From an uncultured Saprospiraceae bacterium (GTDB lineage: Bacteria > Bacteroidota > Bacteroidia > Chitinophagales > Saprospiraceae): a DNA stretch of 37,640 bases. Position numbers and translations under genes: made by a program. Numbering within the stretch: position 1 is the first letter of the stretch; every line of letters begins with the position of its first letter. The notes under the pieces are model-generated. The model had not been told where the DNA came from, searched no databases, and was given only the letters and a program-made list of their open reading frames with translations. The DNA lies in NCBI GenBank assembly GCA_937921555.1, contig CAKZUV010000193.1:1-37640 (forward strand). Reading direction: 5' to 3'. This document shows, piece by piece, positions 12,657 to 37,529 of this stretch.

Positions 12657-12944
12657 TTAATTTGCCCGGCCGCCTGGCTCAATGGTATTATCATTATCAA
12701 AATTACCTTCCCGTAAATCTTTTATCTCTTCTGATTCTTCCGCAGGAAGATCAGATCCGCCGAATAAAGCAGAAATCATCCCGAGTGCTTTGGATAAATA
12801 TAGTTCCAGCACATTTCCAATAAAACCGATATTACGGGCAGTACCCATTACGTTACGTTCTAGCTGTGGAGAGGGCTTTGGTGCCTGTTCTGCTTCTATT
12901 TCTGCTAGTTTCTTAAAATTGTTGTTACTATCTGCTGATGCCAT
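12657..12944 (-). CDS. 95-residue hypothetical protein between sigma factor and channel
   Basis: I do not recognise a family. The start ATG at 12944 lies ten bases after the sigma factor stop, so the two are almost certainly cotranscribed. Residues 1-32 are polar and charged. Residues 36-62 contain a Gly/Ile/Leu-rich stretch (NIGFIGNVLELYLSKALGMI) that could be a membrane-associated amphipathic helix. The C-terminal 30 residues are strongly acidic (PAEESEEIKDLREGNFDNDN). The second gene of an ECF operon is often its anti-sigma factor, so this could be a minimal regulator, but no zinc-binding or FecR-like anti-sigma motif is seen. Confidence 0.6.
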   Translation of the reverse strand: MASADSNNNFKKLAEIEAEQAPKPSPQLERNVMGTARNIGFIGNVLELYLSKALGMISALFGGSDLPAEESEEIKDLREGNFDNDNTIEPGGRAN

Positions 12945-12954
12945 GACCAGATTA

Positions 12955-13563
12955 TTAATTTAGGTTATTCGGAAATATATCCCGGTAAACATTTTGTGCT
13001 TTATGTTTAGCCCTTTTAATTTTCATCTTGATTGCACTCTCTGATTTATCCAGTACGCCCGCTATTTCTCTGATGGACATATCATCCTGATACTTCATCA
13101 GCAGGATAGCCTTATCACCAGTTGGAATGAGCTCAAGCACTTTTTTTAATTTTGCAACTTCCATTTCCAGCAGCTCGCTGTCTGGTATGTCATCGACAAT
13201 GTCCGGAGGATTTTCCATCTCATCCGAAAAAAGAGCTTTGCTCTTTTTTCGTTTCCGTAGAAAATCAATGCAAAAGTTATAAGTAATTGAATAAACCCAA
13301 GTTGAAAACTTTGAGCGTTCACTAAATTTTGCCAGGTTTAAAAATATTTTAGTGAAAATCTCCTGCGTAGCATCCTGTGCTAGTGCTTCATCTTTTAGCA
13401 GTGAAATACACTTGCTAAAAACCTTAGTTGAATATCTTTGATAGAGTATTCCAAAATAGTCAGAACGCTGCGTTTTCAAATACAATTTGATAACTTCACT
13501 ATCTGTCTTTTTTGAGTGTGGACTCTTCGCCGACTTACCGCGAAATGAAGATGGGGTTTTCAC
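12955..13563 (-). CDS. ECF-type RNA polymerase sigma factor
   Basis: Sigma-70 family factor of 202 residues. Region 2 is visible at about 40-100 (DATQEIFTKIFLNLAKF, then FSTWVYSITYNFCIDFLRKR, the -10-recognising helix). Region 4 is at about 140-190 (the helix-turn-helix MSIREIAGVLDKSESAIKMK then IKRAKHKAQ). Regions 1 and 3 are absent, as in ECF factors. The first 25 residues are basic and Ser/Lys-rich, an N-terminal extension of unknown role. It heads a minus-strand cluster with the 95-aa gene and the MscS-like channel. A perfect -7 box lies 45 bp upstream, and a terminator hairpin with a separate promoter lies further upstream, so expression may have an extra control layer. Confidence 0.92.
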   Translation of the reverse strand: MKTPSSFRGKSAKSPHSKKTDSEVIKLYLKTQRSDYFGILYQRYSTKVFSKCISLLKDEALAQDATQEIFTKIFLNLAKFSERSKFSTWVYSITYNFCIDFLRKRKKSKALFSDEMENPPDIVDDIPDSELLEMEVAKLKKVLELIPTGDKAILLMKYQDDMSIREIAGVLDKSESAIKMKIKRAKHKAQNVYRDIFPNNLN

Positions 13564-13607: not shown

Positions 13608-13615
13608 CAAAAGTA
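13608..13615 (-). promoter_or_regulatory. -7 box of the ECF sigma gene
   Basis: On the minus strand TACTTTTG matches TAnnTTTG exactly, 45 bp before the sigma start codon. The -33 region is not a good match. Its position downstream of the terminator at 13689-13722 would give the sigma gene its own transcript. Confidence 0.45.
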
Positions 13616-13688: not shown

Positions 13689-13722
13689 AAAAAAAAGAGG
13701 TACCATCTAAAAGATGTACCTC
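13689..13722 (-). terminator. Rho-independent terminator upstream of the sigma gene
   Basis: On the minus strand GAGGTACATCT pairs with AGATGGTACCTC (one-base bulge, short loop) and is followed by eight U. On the plus strand no U tract follows, so it acts only on minus-strand transcripts. No gene precedes it within 350 bp on that strand. Confidence 0.75.
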
Positions 13723-13814
13723 TGCCCTAACCAAATAAAACCAAATTATATTCTTTACATCGGGCTAATGCTATTTTATTTTGAATATTATTGTTTGTGT
13801 TAAAAATACAATAA
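13689..13814 (-). ncRNA. Candidate small RNA or terminated leader, about 125 nt
   Basis: A full consensus promoter (13820-13852) and an intrinsic terminator (13689-13722) bracket about 125 bases on the minus strand. The stretch has no usable reading frame: its only ATG is followed at once by TAA. It could be an independent small RNA or an attenuated leader of the ECF sigma gene that lies 126 bp beyond the terminator. No known RNA family is recognised. Confidence 0.45.
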
Positions 13815-13819
13815 CACCA

Positions 13820-13852
13820 CAAATTTAAGCTATTTTCATTGAAATAGACAAA
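13820..13852 (-). promoter_or_regulatory. Consensus Bacteroidota promoter
   Basis: On the minus strand TTTG (13849-13852) and TAAATTTG (13820-13827) are separated by 21 bases, matching the TTTG-n(17-23)-TAnnTTTG pattern completely. It is the best promoter match I found in the window, yet it does not sit in front of a coding gene. The surrounding 540-bp gap (13564-14103) otherwise holds only AT-rich sequence and a near-consensus TATCTTTC at 14061 before the peptidase gene. Confidence 0.55.
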
Positions 13853-14103: not shown

Positions 14104-15489
14104 ATGTGCTTATCCCGCTTTTTAATTTGTGGCCTCTTCCTGCTTTGTTTCTTCTCCAATCTGAAAAGTCAGGAAACAGACGATGCTATTTTTATCAAAA
14201 ACATATACAATAAAGTGCTGCAAGATGGCAGTGCTTACCAATGGCTCAACCATCTGACTACTCAGATCGGCGGACGACTATCCGGTTCTCCACAGGCAGC
14301 CGAGGCAGTAGATTATACCCGGGCGATGCTGGATTCTCTGGGCCTGGACTCCGTCTGGCTGCAACCTTGCGAAGTGCCCCACTGGGTCAGAGGCGAAAAA
14401 GAAGAAGTTCATATCCTAATCCCGGCGGCAAACATTAACCTGCCGGCCCTCGCTCTCGGAAATTCCGTAGCAACTCCTCCCAGCGGAATTACCGCCGAAA
14501 TCATCGAAGTTCGCTCGCTTGACGAAGTAGAAAAACTGGGGGCTAAAAACATAAAAGGTAAAATTGTTTTTTTCAATCGTCCCATGGACCCGACCCAGAT
14601 CCGGACTTTCAATGCTTACGGTGGTGCCGTGGATCAACGGGTCAACGGGCCTTCCGAGGCCGCCCGCTATGGTGCCGTAGCGACCCTGGTCCGGTCCATG
14701 ACCACACTCCACGATGACCACCCGCATACCGGGGTAATGGTCAATAAAGAGGGAATCAATAAAATTCCCGCCGTTGCGATCAGCACCAACGCCGCTGAGA
14801 TGCTCCACAAAATGCTGCTGGAAAAAAAGGTGACCATTTATATGAAAACAAATTGTCAGACGCTGGATCCCGTACAATCCTACAACGTAATCGGAGAAAT
14901 AAAAGGAAGTACCTATCCGGATGAAATTATTCTGGTAGGCGGACACCTCGATTCCTGGGATGTCGGACAGGGCGCCCACGACGACGGCGCGGGTTGTGTG
15001 CACGCAATGGAAGTTATCCGTACCCTCAAAGAATTGAACTACCAGCCAAAACGTACTTTGCGTTGTGTTCTTTTTATGAACGAAGAAAATGGACTGGCCG
15101 GCGGACTGGCTTACGCGGAGGCAGCCAACAAAAAAGGAGAAATGCACCTGGCTGCCGTCGAATCGGACGCGGGTGGCTTTACGCCCCGAGGATTTAGCTG
15201 TGACGCAGAAAATGAAGTTTTTGCTGATCTTTATTTAAAATTGCAGCAATGGTTACCTTTGCTGGAACCTTACGGGCTGATGCTGACCAAAGGTGGATCG
15301 GGAGCAGACATTTCCCCACTGAAAAGCCAGCGGGGATTATTGGTTGGTTTCCGGCCGGACTCTCAGCGGTATTTTGATTACCATCATACGGCCACGGATA
15401 CTTTTGAGGCGGTCAATCAGCGAGAACTCGAACTGGGCGCCGCCTCCATTACGGCTCTTATTTATTTAATTGATAAACATGGATTATGA
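14104..15489 (+). CDS. M28 family zinc peptidase (carboxypeptidase Q-like)
   Basis: Secreted or periplasmic metallopeptidase of 461 residues. The signal peptide is about residues 1-22 (hydrophobic core FLICGLFLLCFFS, cleavage near SQE). A PA-type insert occupies about 130-250. The catalytic domain has the M28 zinc ligands: His281 and Asp293 (GGHLDSWDVGQGAHDDGAG), Glu327 as general base and Glu328 as ligand (FMNEENG), Asp355 (ESDAGGF) and His428 (YHHTATDT). The overall arrangement is closest to the plasma glutamate carboxypeptidase/carboxypeptidase Q group, which releases residues from short peptides. Its stop overlaps the hpt start (ATGA), so the two form an operon. Upstream, TATCTTTC at 14061 is a near-consensus -7 box. 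Confidence 0.9.
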   Translation: MCLSRFLICGLFLLCFFSNLKSQETDDAIFIKNIYNKVLQDGSAYQWLNHLTTQIGGRLSGSPQAAEAVDYTRAMLDSLGLDSVWLQPCEVPHWVRGEKEEVHILIPAANINLPALALGNSVATPPSGITAEIIEVRSLDEVEKLGAKNIKGKIVFFNRPMDPTQIRTFNAYGGAVDQRVNGPSEAARYGAVATLVRSMTTLHDDHPHTGVMVNKEGINKIPAVAISTNAAEMLHKMLLEKKVTIYMKTNCQTLDPVQSYNVIGEIKGSTYPDEIILVGGHLDSWDVGQGAHDDGAGCVHAMEVIRTLKELNYQPKRTLRCVLFMNEENGLAGGLAYAEAANKKGEMHLAAVESDAGGFTPRGFSCDAENEVFADLYLKLQQWLPLLEPYGLMLTKGGSGADISPLKSQRGLLVGFRPDSQRYFDYHHTATDTFEAVNQRELELGAASITALIYLIDKHGL

Positions 15490-16025
15490 AAGAAGTAACG
15501 GTACACGACAAAGTTTTTGAATTATACATCTCTGCCGAAAAAATTCAGGCAAGGGTGGACGAAATAGGAAAGGCTATTTCGGAGGAATTCAGAGGTAGAA
15601 ATCCGCTTTTTGTGAGTATTCTCAATGGTTCTTTCGTTTTTACGGCAGATATTATGCGGGCCTGTGAGATGGATTGTGAAGTTTCTTTTGTCAAACTTTC
15701 ATCTTATCAAGGAACCGAGACAACGGGAAAGATAAAGACCCTGATCGGACTGGACAGCAACATTGCGGGCCGGGAAGTGATTATTCTGGAAGATATCGTG
15801 GATACGGGAAATACCCTGACGCATTTTCTGGAAATTCTGGATACTTACGATCCCAAATCGGTCACGCTGGTTTCTCTGCTGACCAAACCCGAAGTTTTGA
15901 AAGACCGGGTCAAAGTAGATCAAATCGGTTTTGAGATACCCAATAAATTTGTGGTGGGTTACGGGCTGGATTACGACGGTCTGGCGCGAAACTTGAAGGA
16001 CATTTATCAGCTGAAAGGCGGATAA
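15486..16025 (+). CDS. hpt: Hypoxanthine phosphoribosyltransferase
   Basis: Purine salvage enzyme making IMP (and probably GMP) from hypoxanthine/guanine and PRPP in the cytosol. The 179-residue length is typical. The PRPP-binding motif VIILEDIVDTGNTL (98-111) carries the Glu102-Asp103 pair and the phosphate-binding loop DTGNT. Other family landmarks are SILNGSFVFTADI (44-56, the P-loop-like Gly-Ser segment), KLSSYQGTETTGK and the base-binding region FVVGYGLDYDGLARNL. It overlaps the preceding M28 peptidase gene by four bases, so it is translationally coupled to it; the functional link (peptide and purine scavenging) is only a guess. tRNA-Gln follows 93 bp downstream. Confidence 0.95.
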   Translation: MKEVTVHDKVFELYISAEKIQARVDEIGKAISEEFRGRNPLFVSILNGSFVFTADIMRACEMDCEVSFVKLSSYQGTETTGKIKTLIGLDSNIAGREVIILEDIVDTGNTLTHFLEILDTYDPKSVTLVSLLTKPEVLKDRVKVDQIGFEIPNKFVVGYGLDYDGLARNLKDIYQLKGG

Positions 16026-36746: not shown

Positions 36747-37529
36747 ATGGGATTTTTCGATTTTCTAAAGGGCCTGTTTGGTTCGGTTAAAGACTCTGCT
36801 GGTGATGTTGCCTCTGGCGCAAAAGGTTTAGCGGGCGATGCATTGGATAAAGCGGGTGACGCCGCAGGTGGTTTAAAAGATCTTGCGGGTGATGCATTGG
36901 ATAAAGCAGGAGACGCCGCAGGTGGTTTAAAAGATCTGGCAGGTGATGCGGTAGATGGCGCCAAGGATTTAGCGGGCGATGCATTGGACAAAGCAGGTGA
37001 TGCAGTGAACGCGGTTAAAGATAAAGTGGGTGATGTGGTAGATGGTGCCAAGGATTTGGCAGAAGGCGCGATGGACAAGGCGGGCGATGCGGTAAACGCA
37101 GTTAAAGATAAAGCGGGTGACGCGGTAGATGGCGCCAAAGACATGGCGAGTGGTGCGATGGACAAAGCGGGCGATGCGGTAAATTCGGTCAAGGATGCTG
37201 CGGGCGACGCGGTAGATGGTGCCAAAGATATGGCGAGCGGCGCGATGGACAAAGCGGGCGATGCGGTAAATTCGGTCAAGGATGCTGCGGGTGACGCGGT
37301 AGATGGTGCCAAAGATATGGCGAGCGGTGCGATGGACAAAGCGGGTGATGCGGTAAATTCAGTCAAAGATGCTGCGGGTGACGCGGTAGATGGCGCCAAA
37401 GACATGGCGAGCGGCGCGATGGACAAAGCGGGCGATGCGGTCAATTCGGCCAAAGATGCTGCGGGCGACGCGGTAGATGGTGCCAAAGACGCTGCGTCAG
37501 ATTTAGAAGATGAAATAAAAAACAGCTAA
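36747..37529 (+). CDS. LEA-like repeat protein of 260 residues
   Basis: Low-complexity amphipathic helical protein. The N-terminus MGFFDFLKGLFGSVKDSAGD could be membrane-binding. The rest is made of near-identical units of 29 residues such as GAKDMASGAMDKAGDAVNSV then KDAAGDAVD. Each unit is built from shorter 11-residue-like blocks with K/D pairs and Ala/Gly, like group 3 late embryogenesis abundant proteins. Such proteins protect cells against desiccation or osmotic stress; here that is an inference from composition. There is no signal peptide. A long frame on the opposite strand is a by-product of the repeat. It is monocistronic with a strong terminator. Confidence 0.75.
   Translation: MGFFDFLKGLFGSVKDSAGDVASGAKGLAGDALDKAGDAAGGLKDLAGDALDKAGDAAGGLKDLAGDAVDGAKDLAGDALDKAGDAVNAVKDKVGDVVDGAKDLAEGAMDKAGDAVNAVKDKAGDAVDGAKDMASGAMDKAGDAVNSVKDAAGDAVDGAKDMASGAMDKAGDAVNSVKDAAGDAVDGAKDMASGAMDKAGDAVNSVKDAAGDAVDGAKDMASGAMDKAGDAVNSAKDAAGDAVDGAKDAASDLEDEIKNS
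36951..37496 (+). repeat. Tandem 87-bp repeat array in the LEA-like gene
   Basis: Copies begin with GTAGATGGxGCCAA at 36951, 37038, 37125, 37212, 37299 and 37386, with a partial seventh at 37473. The period is exactly 87 bases (29 codons). The later copies are most alike and differ mainly at third positions, which suggests recent expansion or gene conversion. Confidence 0.9.

Follow-up and report, generated by a model that had tools for sequence, protein, structure and literature searches.

Positions 13689–13852 (minus strand) of the 37,640-nucleotide Saprospiraceae DNA analysed here (the window) carry a promoter-terminator pair that most probably makes up the gene of a small regulatory RNA and does not resemble a leader that would control the adjacent sigma factor gene. 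With moderate confidence we read it as an independent gene whose product is a trans-acting small RNA (RNA A) that would pair with mRNAs, perhaps aided by an RRM protein. Its promoter, its nearly invariant 23-nt core and its intrinsic terminator, with a leader of variable sequence between promoter and core, are conserved together, in most cases next to genes for an M28 peptidase or a phosphoribosyltransferase.

Organization of the RNA A locus

The features of the locus and its flanks, with the basis for each, are:

13849..13852, minus strand: -33 element TTTG of the RNA A promoter (sequence; genus comparison)
13820..13827, minus strand: -7 element TAAATTTG of the RNA A promoter (sequence; conservation)
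13797..13817, minus strand: operator-like dyad GTGTTA-N9-TAACAC at the predicted start (sequence)
13689..13813, minus strand: predicted small RNA A, ~125 nt (start placed from the -7 box)
13724..13746, minus strand: open core ATTTGGTTTTATTTGGTTAGGGC, 23 nt, candidate seed or protein site (conservation)
13697..13722, minus strand: terminator hairpin GAGGTACATCTTTTAGATGGTACCTC with one bulged G (folding; covariation)
13689..13696, minus strand: U8 tract of the terminator, T8 in DNA (sequence)
13608..13615, minus strand: TACTTTTG, the sigma gene's own -7 box (sequence; 7/7 genus loci)
12955..13563, minus strand: ECF sigma factor gene, a neighbour outside the RNA (Pfam Sigma70_r2, Sigma70_r4_2)
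14104..15489, plus strand: divergent M28 peptidase gene, conserved upstream neighbour (Pfam Peptidase_M28)
15486..16025, plus strand: phosphoribosyltransferase gene adjoining M28, which we take to be hpt (Pfam Pribosyltran)

The promoter is present as the initial annotation described it, with TTTG separated by 21 bases from TAAATTTG (minus strand, 13852–13820), and we take it to be of the Bacteroidota type. Among seven loci of the genus, the TTG of the -33 element and the T that follows it are identical in all seven, and the TA and TTTG of the -7 box are invariant with a variable middle pair (AA, AG or GA). More broadly, 75 of 107 loci among the matches listed have TAnnTTTG at 25–110 nt 5′ of the core, compared with a mean of 8.7 and a maximum of 16 in shuffles. 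The description of this promoter as the best match in the window needs qualifying: the exact match is real, but the two strands together contain three exact TTTG-N19..21-TAnnTTTG matches, the others (at 37340 and 37253) having the form TTTG-N19-TAnnTTTG and being near-identical to each other. We note that these two, within 37230–37340 on the minus strand, read TTTG-N19-TATCTTTG, are 87 bases apart, and are perhaps intragenic repeats.

The dyad at the predicted start suggests a regulated promoter, and a putative regulator bound there may switch RNA A. Dyads related to TTGTAATTGTATTTTTTACAA (five or fewer mismatches) are found upstream in 29 of 107 loci among the matches listed (shuffles: mean 0.94, maximum 3). 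Its forms can be written TTGTAA/GTGTTA-N9-TTACAA/TAACAC, and by eye the -7 box precedes the dyad in some genera and follows it in others.

The leader between TAAATTTG and the core is AT-rich, and the core begins ~67 nt past the predicted RNA start, immediately 5′ of the hairpin. The proposed terminator with eight U is present (hairpin 13722–13697, T8 at 13696–13689), and both the core sequence and the run of eight T are the same in 7/7 genus loci. A simple terminator scan did not include the hairpin in its list, presumably because of the bulge, and folding reveals it. As had been claimed, the ~125 bases lack a reading frame: the RNA A region is overlapped by no ORF of at least 60 aa, and when the limit is lowered to 20 aa, none on the minus strand is contained entirely in the stretch from the predicted start to the terminator. 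A TTG frame of 31 aa (13822–13727) would begin ahead of the RNA start, and three minus-strand frames of 22–29 aa cross or pass beyond the terminator. Since the invariant columns of the alignment described below include all codon positions, we consider RNA A to be non-coding.

Conservation of RNA A

A search with a 261-base query matches six genus members at 80–84% identity and, in many other genera, short blocks around the core at 79–98% identity. In an alignment (A1) of 26 of 27 loci (L003 was omitted as near-identical to L002) there are 30 invariant columns, 19 of them inside the core; the leader varies between genera, the core hardly. The terminator stem is paired in 95.0% of cells versus 88.7% in shuffles, and 12 cells are changed on both sides versus 2.4. 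Slid registers of the stem pair far worse (35–64% of cells), although the register slid by -3 is higher in one of the five measures (5 pairs with a double change versus 4). RNA A thus has two features of trans-encoded sRNAs, a promoter of its own, by sequence, and an intrinsic terminator conserved by compensatory change.

Of 150 family genomes searched with a covariance model of core plus hairpin (R1), 101 have a match with E<=0.01 and 86 one at the stricter E<=1e-6, and RNA A occurs in 77 of the 112 genera sampled; this model and the family B model R2 (below) match their own alignment members by construction, and loci from different searches overlap in genomes. From a phylum draw of 395 genomes 15 match R1, strongly in three of the six family members listed, with 12 other matches being weak (28–40.5 bits). 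A pattern scan of named genomes places RNA A, among the matches listed, in Saprospiraceae, Lewinella, Neolewinella, Phaeodactylibacter, Flavilitoribacter and Haliscomenobacteraceae; the few matches elsewhere (Photobacterium, Psychrobacter and Bacteroidales) are without a terminator and look like chance matches inside genes. Inheritance of RNA A would be vertical, and the core its working part.

The named loci (at least 118) were chosen by the exact core pattern, so that core identity among them is by construction, and because of this preselection our conservation claims rest on the query search, the RNA A alignment, the R1 search and the letters outside the pattern. Among these letters, GAGGT of the hairpin is conserved at 0.91–0.99 in 110 rows among the matches listed. 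Six of 118 named loci (L078, L082, L083, L113, L176 and L189) were dropped as chance or as not family A, leaving 112, which were further reduced by removing duplicates and short flanks before the counts were made. A tally of 60 of 60 genomes matching at E<=1 was set aside as mostly AT-rich chance. Overall, a covariance-model check in relatives, as the initial annotation had proposed, finds core and hairpin kept; the promoter box is likewise conserved, and all three are kept also where the sigma gene is absent. We also note that core positions 9 and 22 are linked in the 110 A rows among the matches listed (U9 with C22 in 92, C9 with U22 in 16, and two exceptions), which could represent one ancestral double change.

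Twenty regions of weak or lower-scoring R1 matches were inspected, together with 20 regions of second matches in the same genomes. The first set contains six diverged orthologs beside M28 (L194, L198, L199, L201, L202 and L203), one locus truncated by a contig end (L200), and one that sits a few bases past the end of an ORF (L191). None of the second set has M28 or hpt neighbours. The best second matches (L230, 63.6 bits; L211, 52.0; L212, 50.2; L213, 47.8; L214, 46.2) retain the core with differing hairpins, and by eye TAnnTTTG is upstream of L211 and L230; many of the weakest matches are probably chance. Searches with the core pattern at two mismatches gave forward and reversed counts per genome of similar size, so this pattern alone is no proof of extra copies.

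A second RNA family

A second family (B) was discovered through a string recurring in the reversed-pattern control. Its 26-nt core is TTGTTTTCA[T/A]TTGGTTTTTTGGGGTT, and most copies have a terminator of the CAGGG type after it. With two or fewer mismatches the core is present in 86 of 120 family genomes, with none for the reversed control, and the family spans 82 of the 112 genera sampled. Alignment A4 consists of 24 B sequences that we selected; the B stem is paired in 91.0% of cells versus 80.7% in shuffles, with 13 double-changed cells versus 2.8. Many of the B loci inspected lie between two genes: a divergent one, presumably radA (one such neighbour has Pfam matches to KaiC-type ATPase, zinc ribbon and Lon_C-like domains), and a small convergent one that encodes a dksA/traR zinc finger. 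Other copies are located elsewhere, and tandem copies are present in four genomes (G108, G092, G107 and G028). The covariance model of family B (R2) matched 17 family genomes in an order draw of 149, with two further family genomes listed without a match, two weak matches outside the family, and 110 of the 149 genomes not being listed; of 296 genomes drawn from the phylum, six in the family have an R2 match, as do two others at 33–34 bits. One of the two weak matches of the order draw, at a contig end (L329 in G638, from another family of the order, f12, 40.9 bits), looks like a genuine B-like RNA, and is the only convincing one outside the family among the matches listed.

The genome from which the window derives (G000) has a single A and four B matches (on contigs C16, C50, C28 and C4), the latter with E values of 1.3e-13 to 1.1e-5 and four different hairpins. 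One of the B copies is at C16:46858–46934 (L291, L305), and another (L313, C50:10083–10150) precedes a gene for an MgtE-type transporter, with which it shares its strand. A further one (L317, C4:5631–5692) comprises the B core, hairpin and T run and ends ~15 bases short of where a lipid A acyltransferase gene (Pfam Lip_A_acyltrans) starts, and it could act as the leader of this gene. In another genome, G029, a 10-base unit resembling TTTTGGTTTA forms short tandem arrays on contigs C2, C122, C156 and C160.

Both A and B contain TTGKTTTYATTTGGTT and have a G-rich end immediately ahead of the terminator; their terminator stems differ. In 874 kb of named loci, ATTTGGTT precedes none of 198 other terminator-like hairpins, which speaks against a general terminator motif and suggests that the shared core is under selection and the hairpin is replaceable.

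Potential pairing partners and RNA-binding proteins

The mRNA sites with which RNA A would pair are probably close to translation starts. Complementing the B core, or the C-variant of A, gives AACCAA-AUG-AAA, which could serve as a translation start. The B-core complement has 246 matches in 100 family genomes versus 87 for the reversed control, and about 100 of the 246 are B itself (there are 100 B matches in the same genomes). Forty ATG-bearing sites were picked by eye among the matches listed and two further loci added; seven of these 42 meet a loose gene-start criterion, four of them with open frames of more than 200 aa. By eye, three of the sites are clearly and about four possibly additional B-like RNAs, and the remaining sites look like chance. 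The search gives little backing to start-codon targets for B, most of the 42 sites not being gene starts. The mean duplex energy at starts, less the mean inside genes, gives no signal for A (0.95 versus 1.02 +/- 0.28 kcal/mol with 25 shuffled cores) and a weak one for B (0.17 versus 0.87 +/- 0.28 kcal/mol), with shuffles that preserved base composition only. Because B and the C-variant of A have a motif exactly antisense to AACCAA-AUG-AAA, we offer start-codon masking as part of a decidedly tentative proposal, that A, B and their copies constitute a lineage-specific, Hfq-free sRNA system of Saprospiraceae with the hardly changing motif UUUYAUUUGGUU, a G-rich end and interchangeable terminators, which may mask the AUGs of a class of A-rich leaders. 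If the RNAs act by pairing, targets shared by A and B would carry AACCAAAU close to the start codon.

No Hfq match over the cut-off is present in the 150 family genomes, the window's genome having no match; there is one sub-threshold match (G147), and the search registers Hfq in 5 of 14 control genomes. RRM_1 proteins are encoded in 129 of the 150, including the window's genome, and in 2 of the 14 controls, Bacteroides ihuae among them. As no Hfq was detected over the cut-off in the family, pairing by RNA A is perhaps assisted by an RRM-type RNA-binding protein, and binding of A or B by such proteins is putative. RNA A (E<=1e-6) is present in 9 of 20 listed RRM-negative genomes (one further RRM-negative genome is absent from this list) versus at most 77 of 129 RRM-positive genomes, and a dependence of A on RRM proteins is thus not established. 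In one genome (G034, contig C38; L303) an RRM protein gene lies ~370 bases upstream of a B RNA on the same strand; among the loci examined this is the only RRM gene near an RNA, the other four rows being RRM loci themselves.

Relationship to known small RNAs

On the sequence evidence we take A and B to be real small RNA families that are not represented in the Rfam copy used, in which neither has a match at the gathering threshold and relaxed matches are far below gathering scores, with none relevant. Among the matches listed in searches of open-licence PMC papers, none is on Saprospiraceae small RNAs; the functional small-RNA work on the phylum that these searches showed is on Bacteroides. 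Hfq-dependent enterobacterial sRNAs have an open seed, a terminator hairpin and a U tail at the 3′ end, and RNA A shares the open core, hairpin and 3′ U tail, but in family genomes that are without Hfq over the cut-off.

The closest analogues are the FopS and GibS sRNAs of Bacteroides, and A and B plausibly work like them. As described, FopS of Bacteroides thetaiotaomicron comprises paralogous sRNAs that share a conserved single-stranded stretch at the 5′ end, have canonical Bacteroides promoters and a Rho-independent terminator, are bound by the RRM protein RbpB and repress susC-like mRNAs, in hosts without classical sRNA chaperones and with RRM proteins (PMC11697453). GibS of the same species is described as a largely unfolded trans-encoded RNA of ~145 nt, with its own promoter, a highly conserved open seed, seeds in its 5′ part, an intrinsic terminator and known mRNA targets (PMC7366714), and FopS and GibS act with RbpB near translation starts (PMC11697453, PMC7366714). 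The one A and four B copies of the window's genome, with an open conserved stretch and different intrinsic terminators, resemble the FopS arrangement as described, and RNA A resembles the description of GibS in its open conserved core, intrinsic terminator and own promoter. However, the conserved stretch of A and B is directly before the terminator, in contrast to the 5′ end in the FopS account and the 5′ seeds reported for GibS, and the Saprospiraceae RNAs belong to another lineage and form two sequence classes. FopS is deposited in Rfam according to its paper (PMC11697453), and the comparison by sequence, which gave no Rfam match, assumes on that statement that the FopS model is in the copy used. 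Because of the lack of an Rfam match and the different location of the conserved stretch, we do not assign A and B to FopS. The near-constancy of the A and B cores across genera provides an entry point to the protein that holds them, their pairing partners and their intolerance to change, and the presence of RNA A in named strains (Neolewinella, Phaeodactylibacter and Flavilitoribacter) makes it a concrete one.

Neighbouring genes and alternative explanations

The next gene in the direction of transcription does encode an ECF sigma factor, as its Pfam matches confirm, and the -7 box of its own that it was said to have is found after the terminator at 13615–13608. It had been proposed that either a stand-alone small RNA is made or read-through of the terminator controls the sigma factor, the latter making RNA A a terminator-attenuated leader. 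Transcription attenuator leaders have a promoter, a short RNA and an intrinsic terminator before a gene, and the locus shares this layout, with the sigma gene on the same strand, starting ~125 nt past the T run and following RNA A throughout the genus. However, in loci among the matches listed with at least 700 bases downstream, a sigma homolog follows in 21 of 102 and is absent from 81, so that the gene that would be regulated is not conserved; the sigma gene has its own box in all seven genus loci, and the one fold computed shows no evident antiterminator alternative. The upstream side is different, with M28 divergent in 78 and hpt in 6 of the 99 loci among the matches listed with at least 700 bases (84 of 99 together; neither in 15). 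Retention of M28 or hpt with frequent absence of the sigma gene argues that RNA A is a stand-alone gene, which by this pattern is tied to its hpt/M28 flank and persists where the sigma gene is missing, and its promoter, core and terminator are found family-wide. Exact TAnnTTTG precedes the sigma frame in 6 of 22 sigma-bearing loci among the matches listed, five of them genus members, and outside the genus it lies between terminator and sigma frame in one of 17 listed (L183). With 16 of these 17 lacking it, a separate sigma promoter is supported for the genus only, and elsewhere the terminator may be read through into the sigma gene. As a general function, read-through control of the sigma factor is unsupported, and we consider a sigma leader very improbable.

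A different role for the core, which seems rather unlikely, is as a protein-binding site, with the RNA sequestering, for example, an RRM protein through AUUUGGUU units in the manner of a sponge. This octamer occurs twice in the RNA A core at 10-nt spacing, part of the motif is common to A and B while the remainder differs, RRM proteins are common, and one RRM gene is upstream of a B copy. But the first unit is lost or altered in L200, L201, L202 and L194, the G-rich part after the AUUUGGUU unit is conserved too, an RRM gene near an RNA is confined to that one locus among those examined, and A is present in some genomes where no RRM protein was detected. That the core is instead a DNA element beside the terminator (a binding site or insertion target) would fit a conserved DNA block near a promoter region, but is highly improbable given stems that covary as RNA in both A and B, a strand-specific order of promoter, leader, core, hairpin and T run, and the retention of core, hairpin and T run in most copies inspected elsewhere. 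A functionless chance pairing of promoter and terminator might be entertained in an AT-rich region where the simple scan counts about as many promoters and terminators as in shuffles, or fewer, and where the stability of the whole-RNA fold is not unusual (z -1.17), but conservation across the family places the pair beyond chance and reduces this explanation to a negligible one. We therefore return to a trans-acting small RNA as the preferred reading of the locus.

In many sigma-bearing relatives a 95-aa protein without a Pfam match (12657–12944, minus strand, in the window) is encoded between the sigma gene and an MscS-type channel gene, and the gene order in these relatives is sigma, 95-aa protein, channel, DUF3078 protein and polA.
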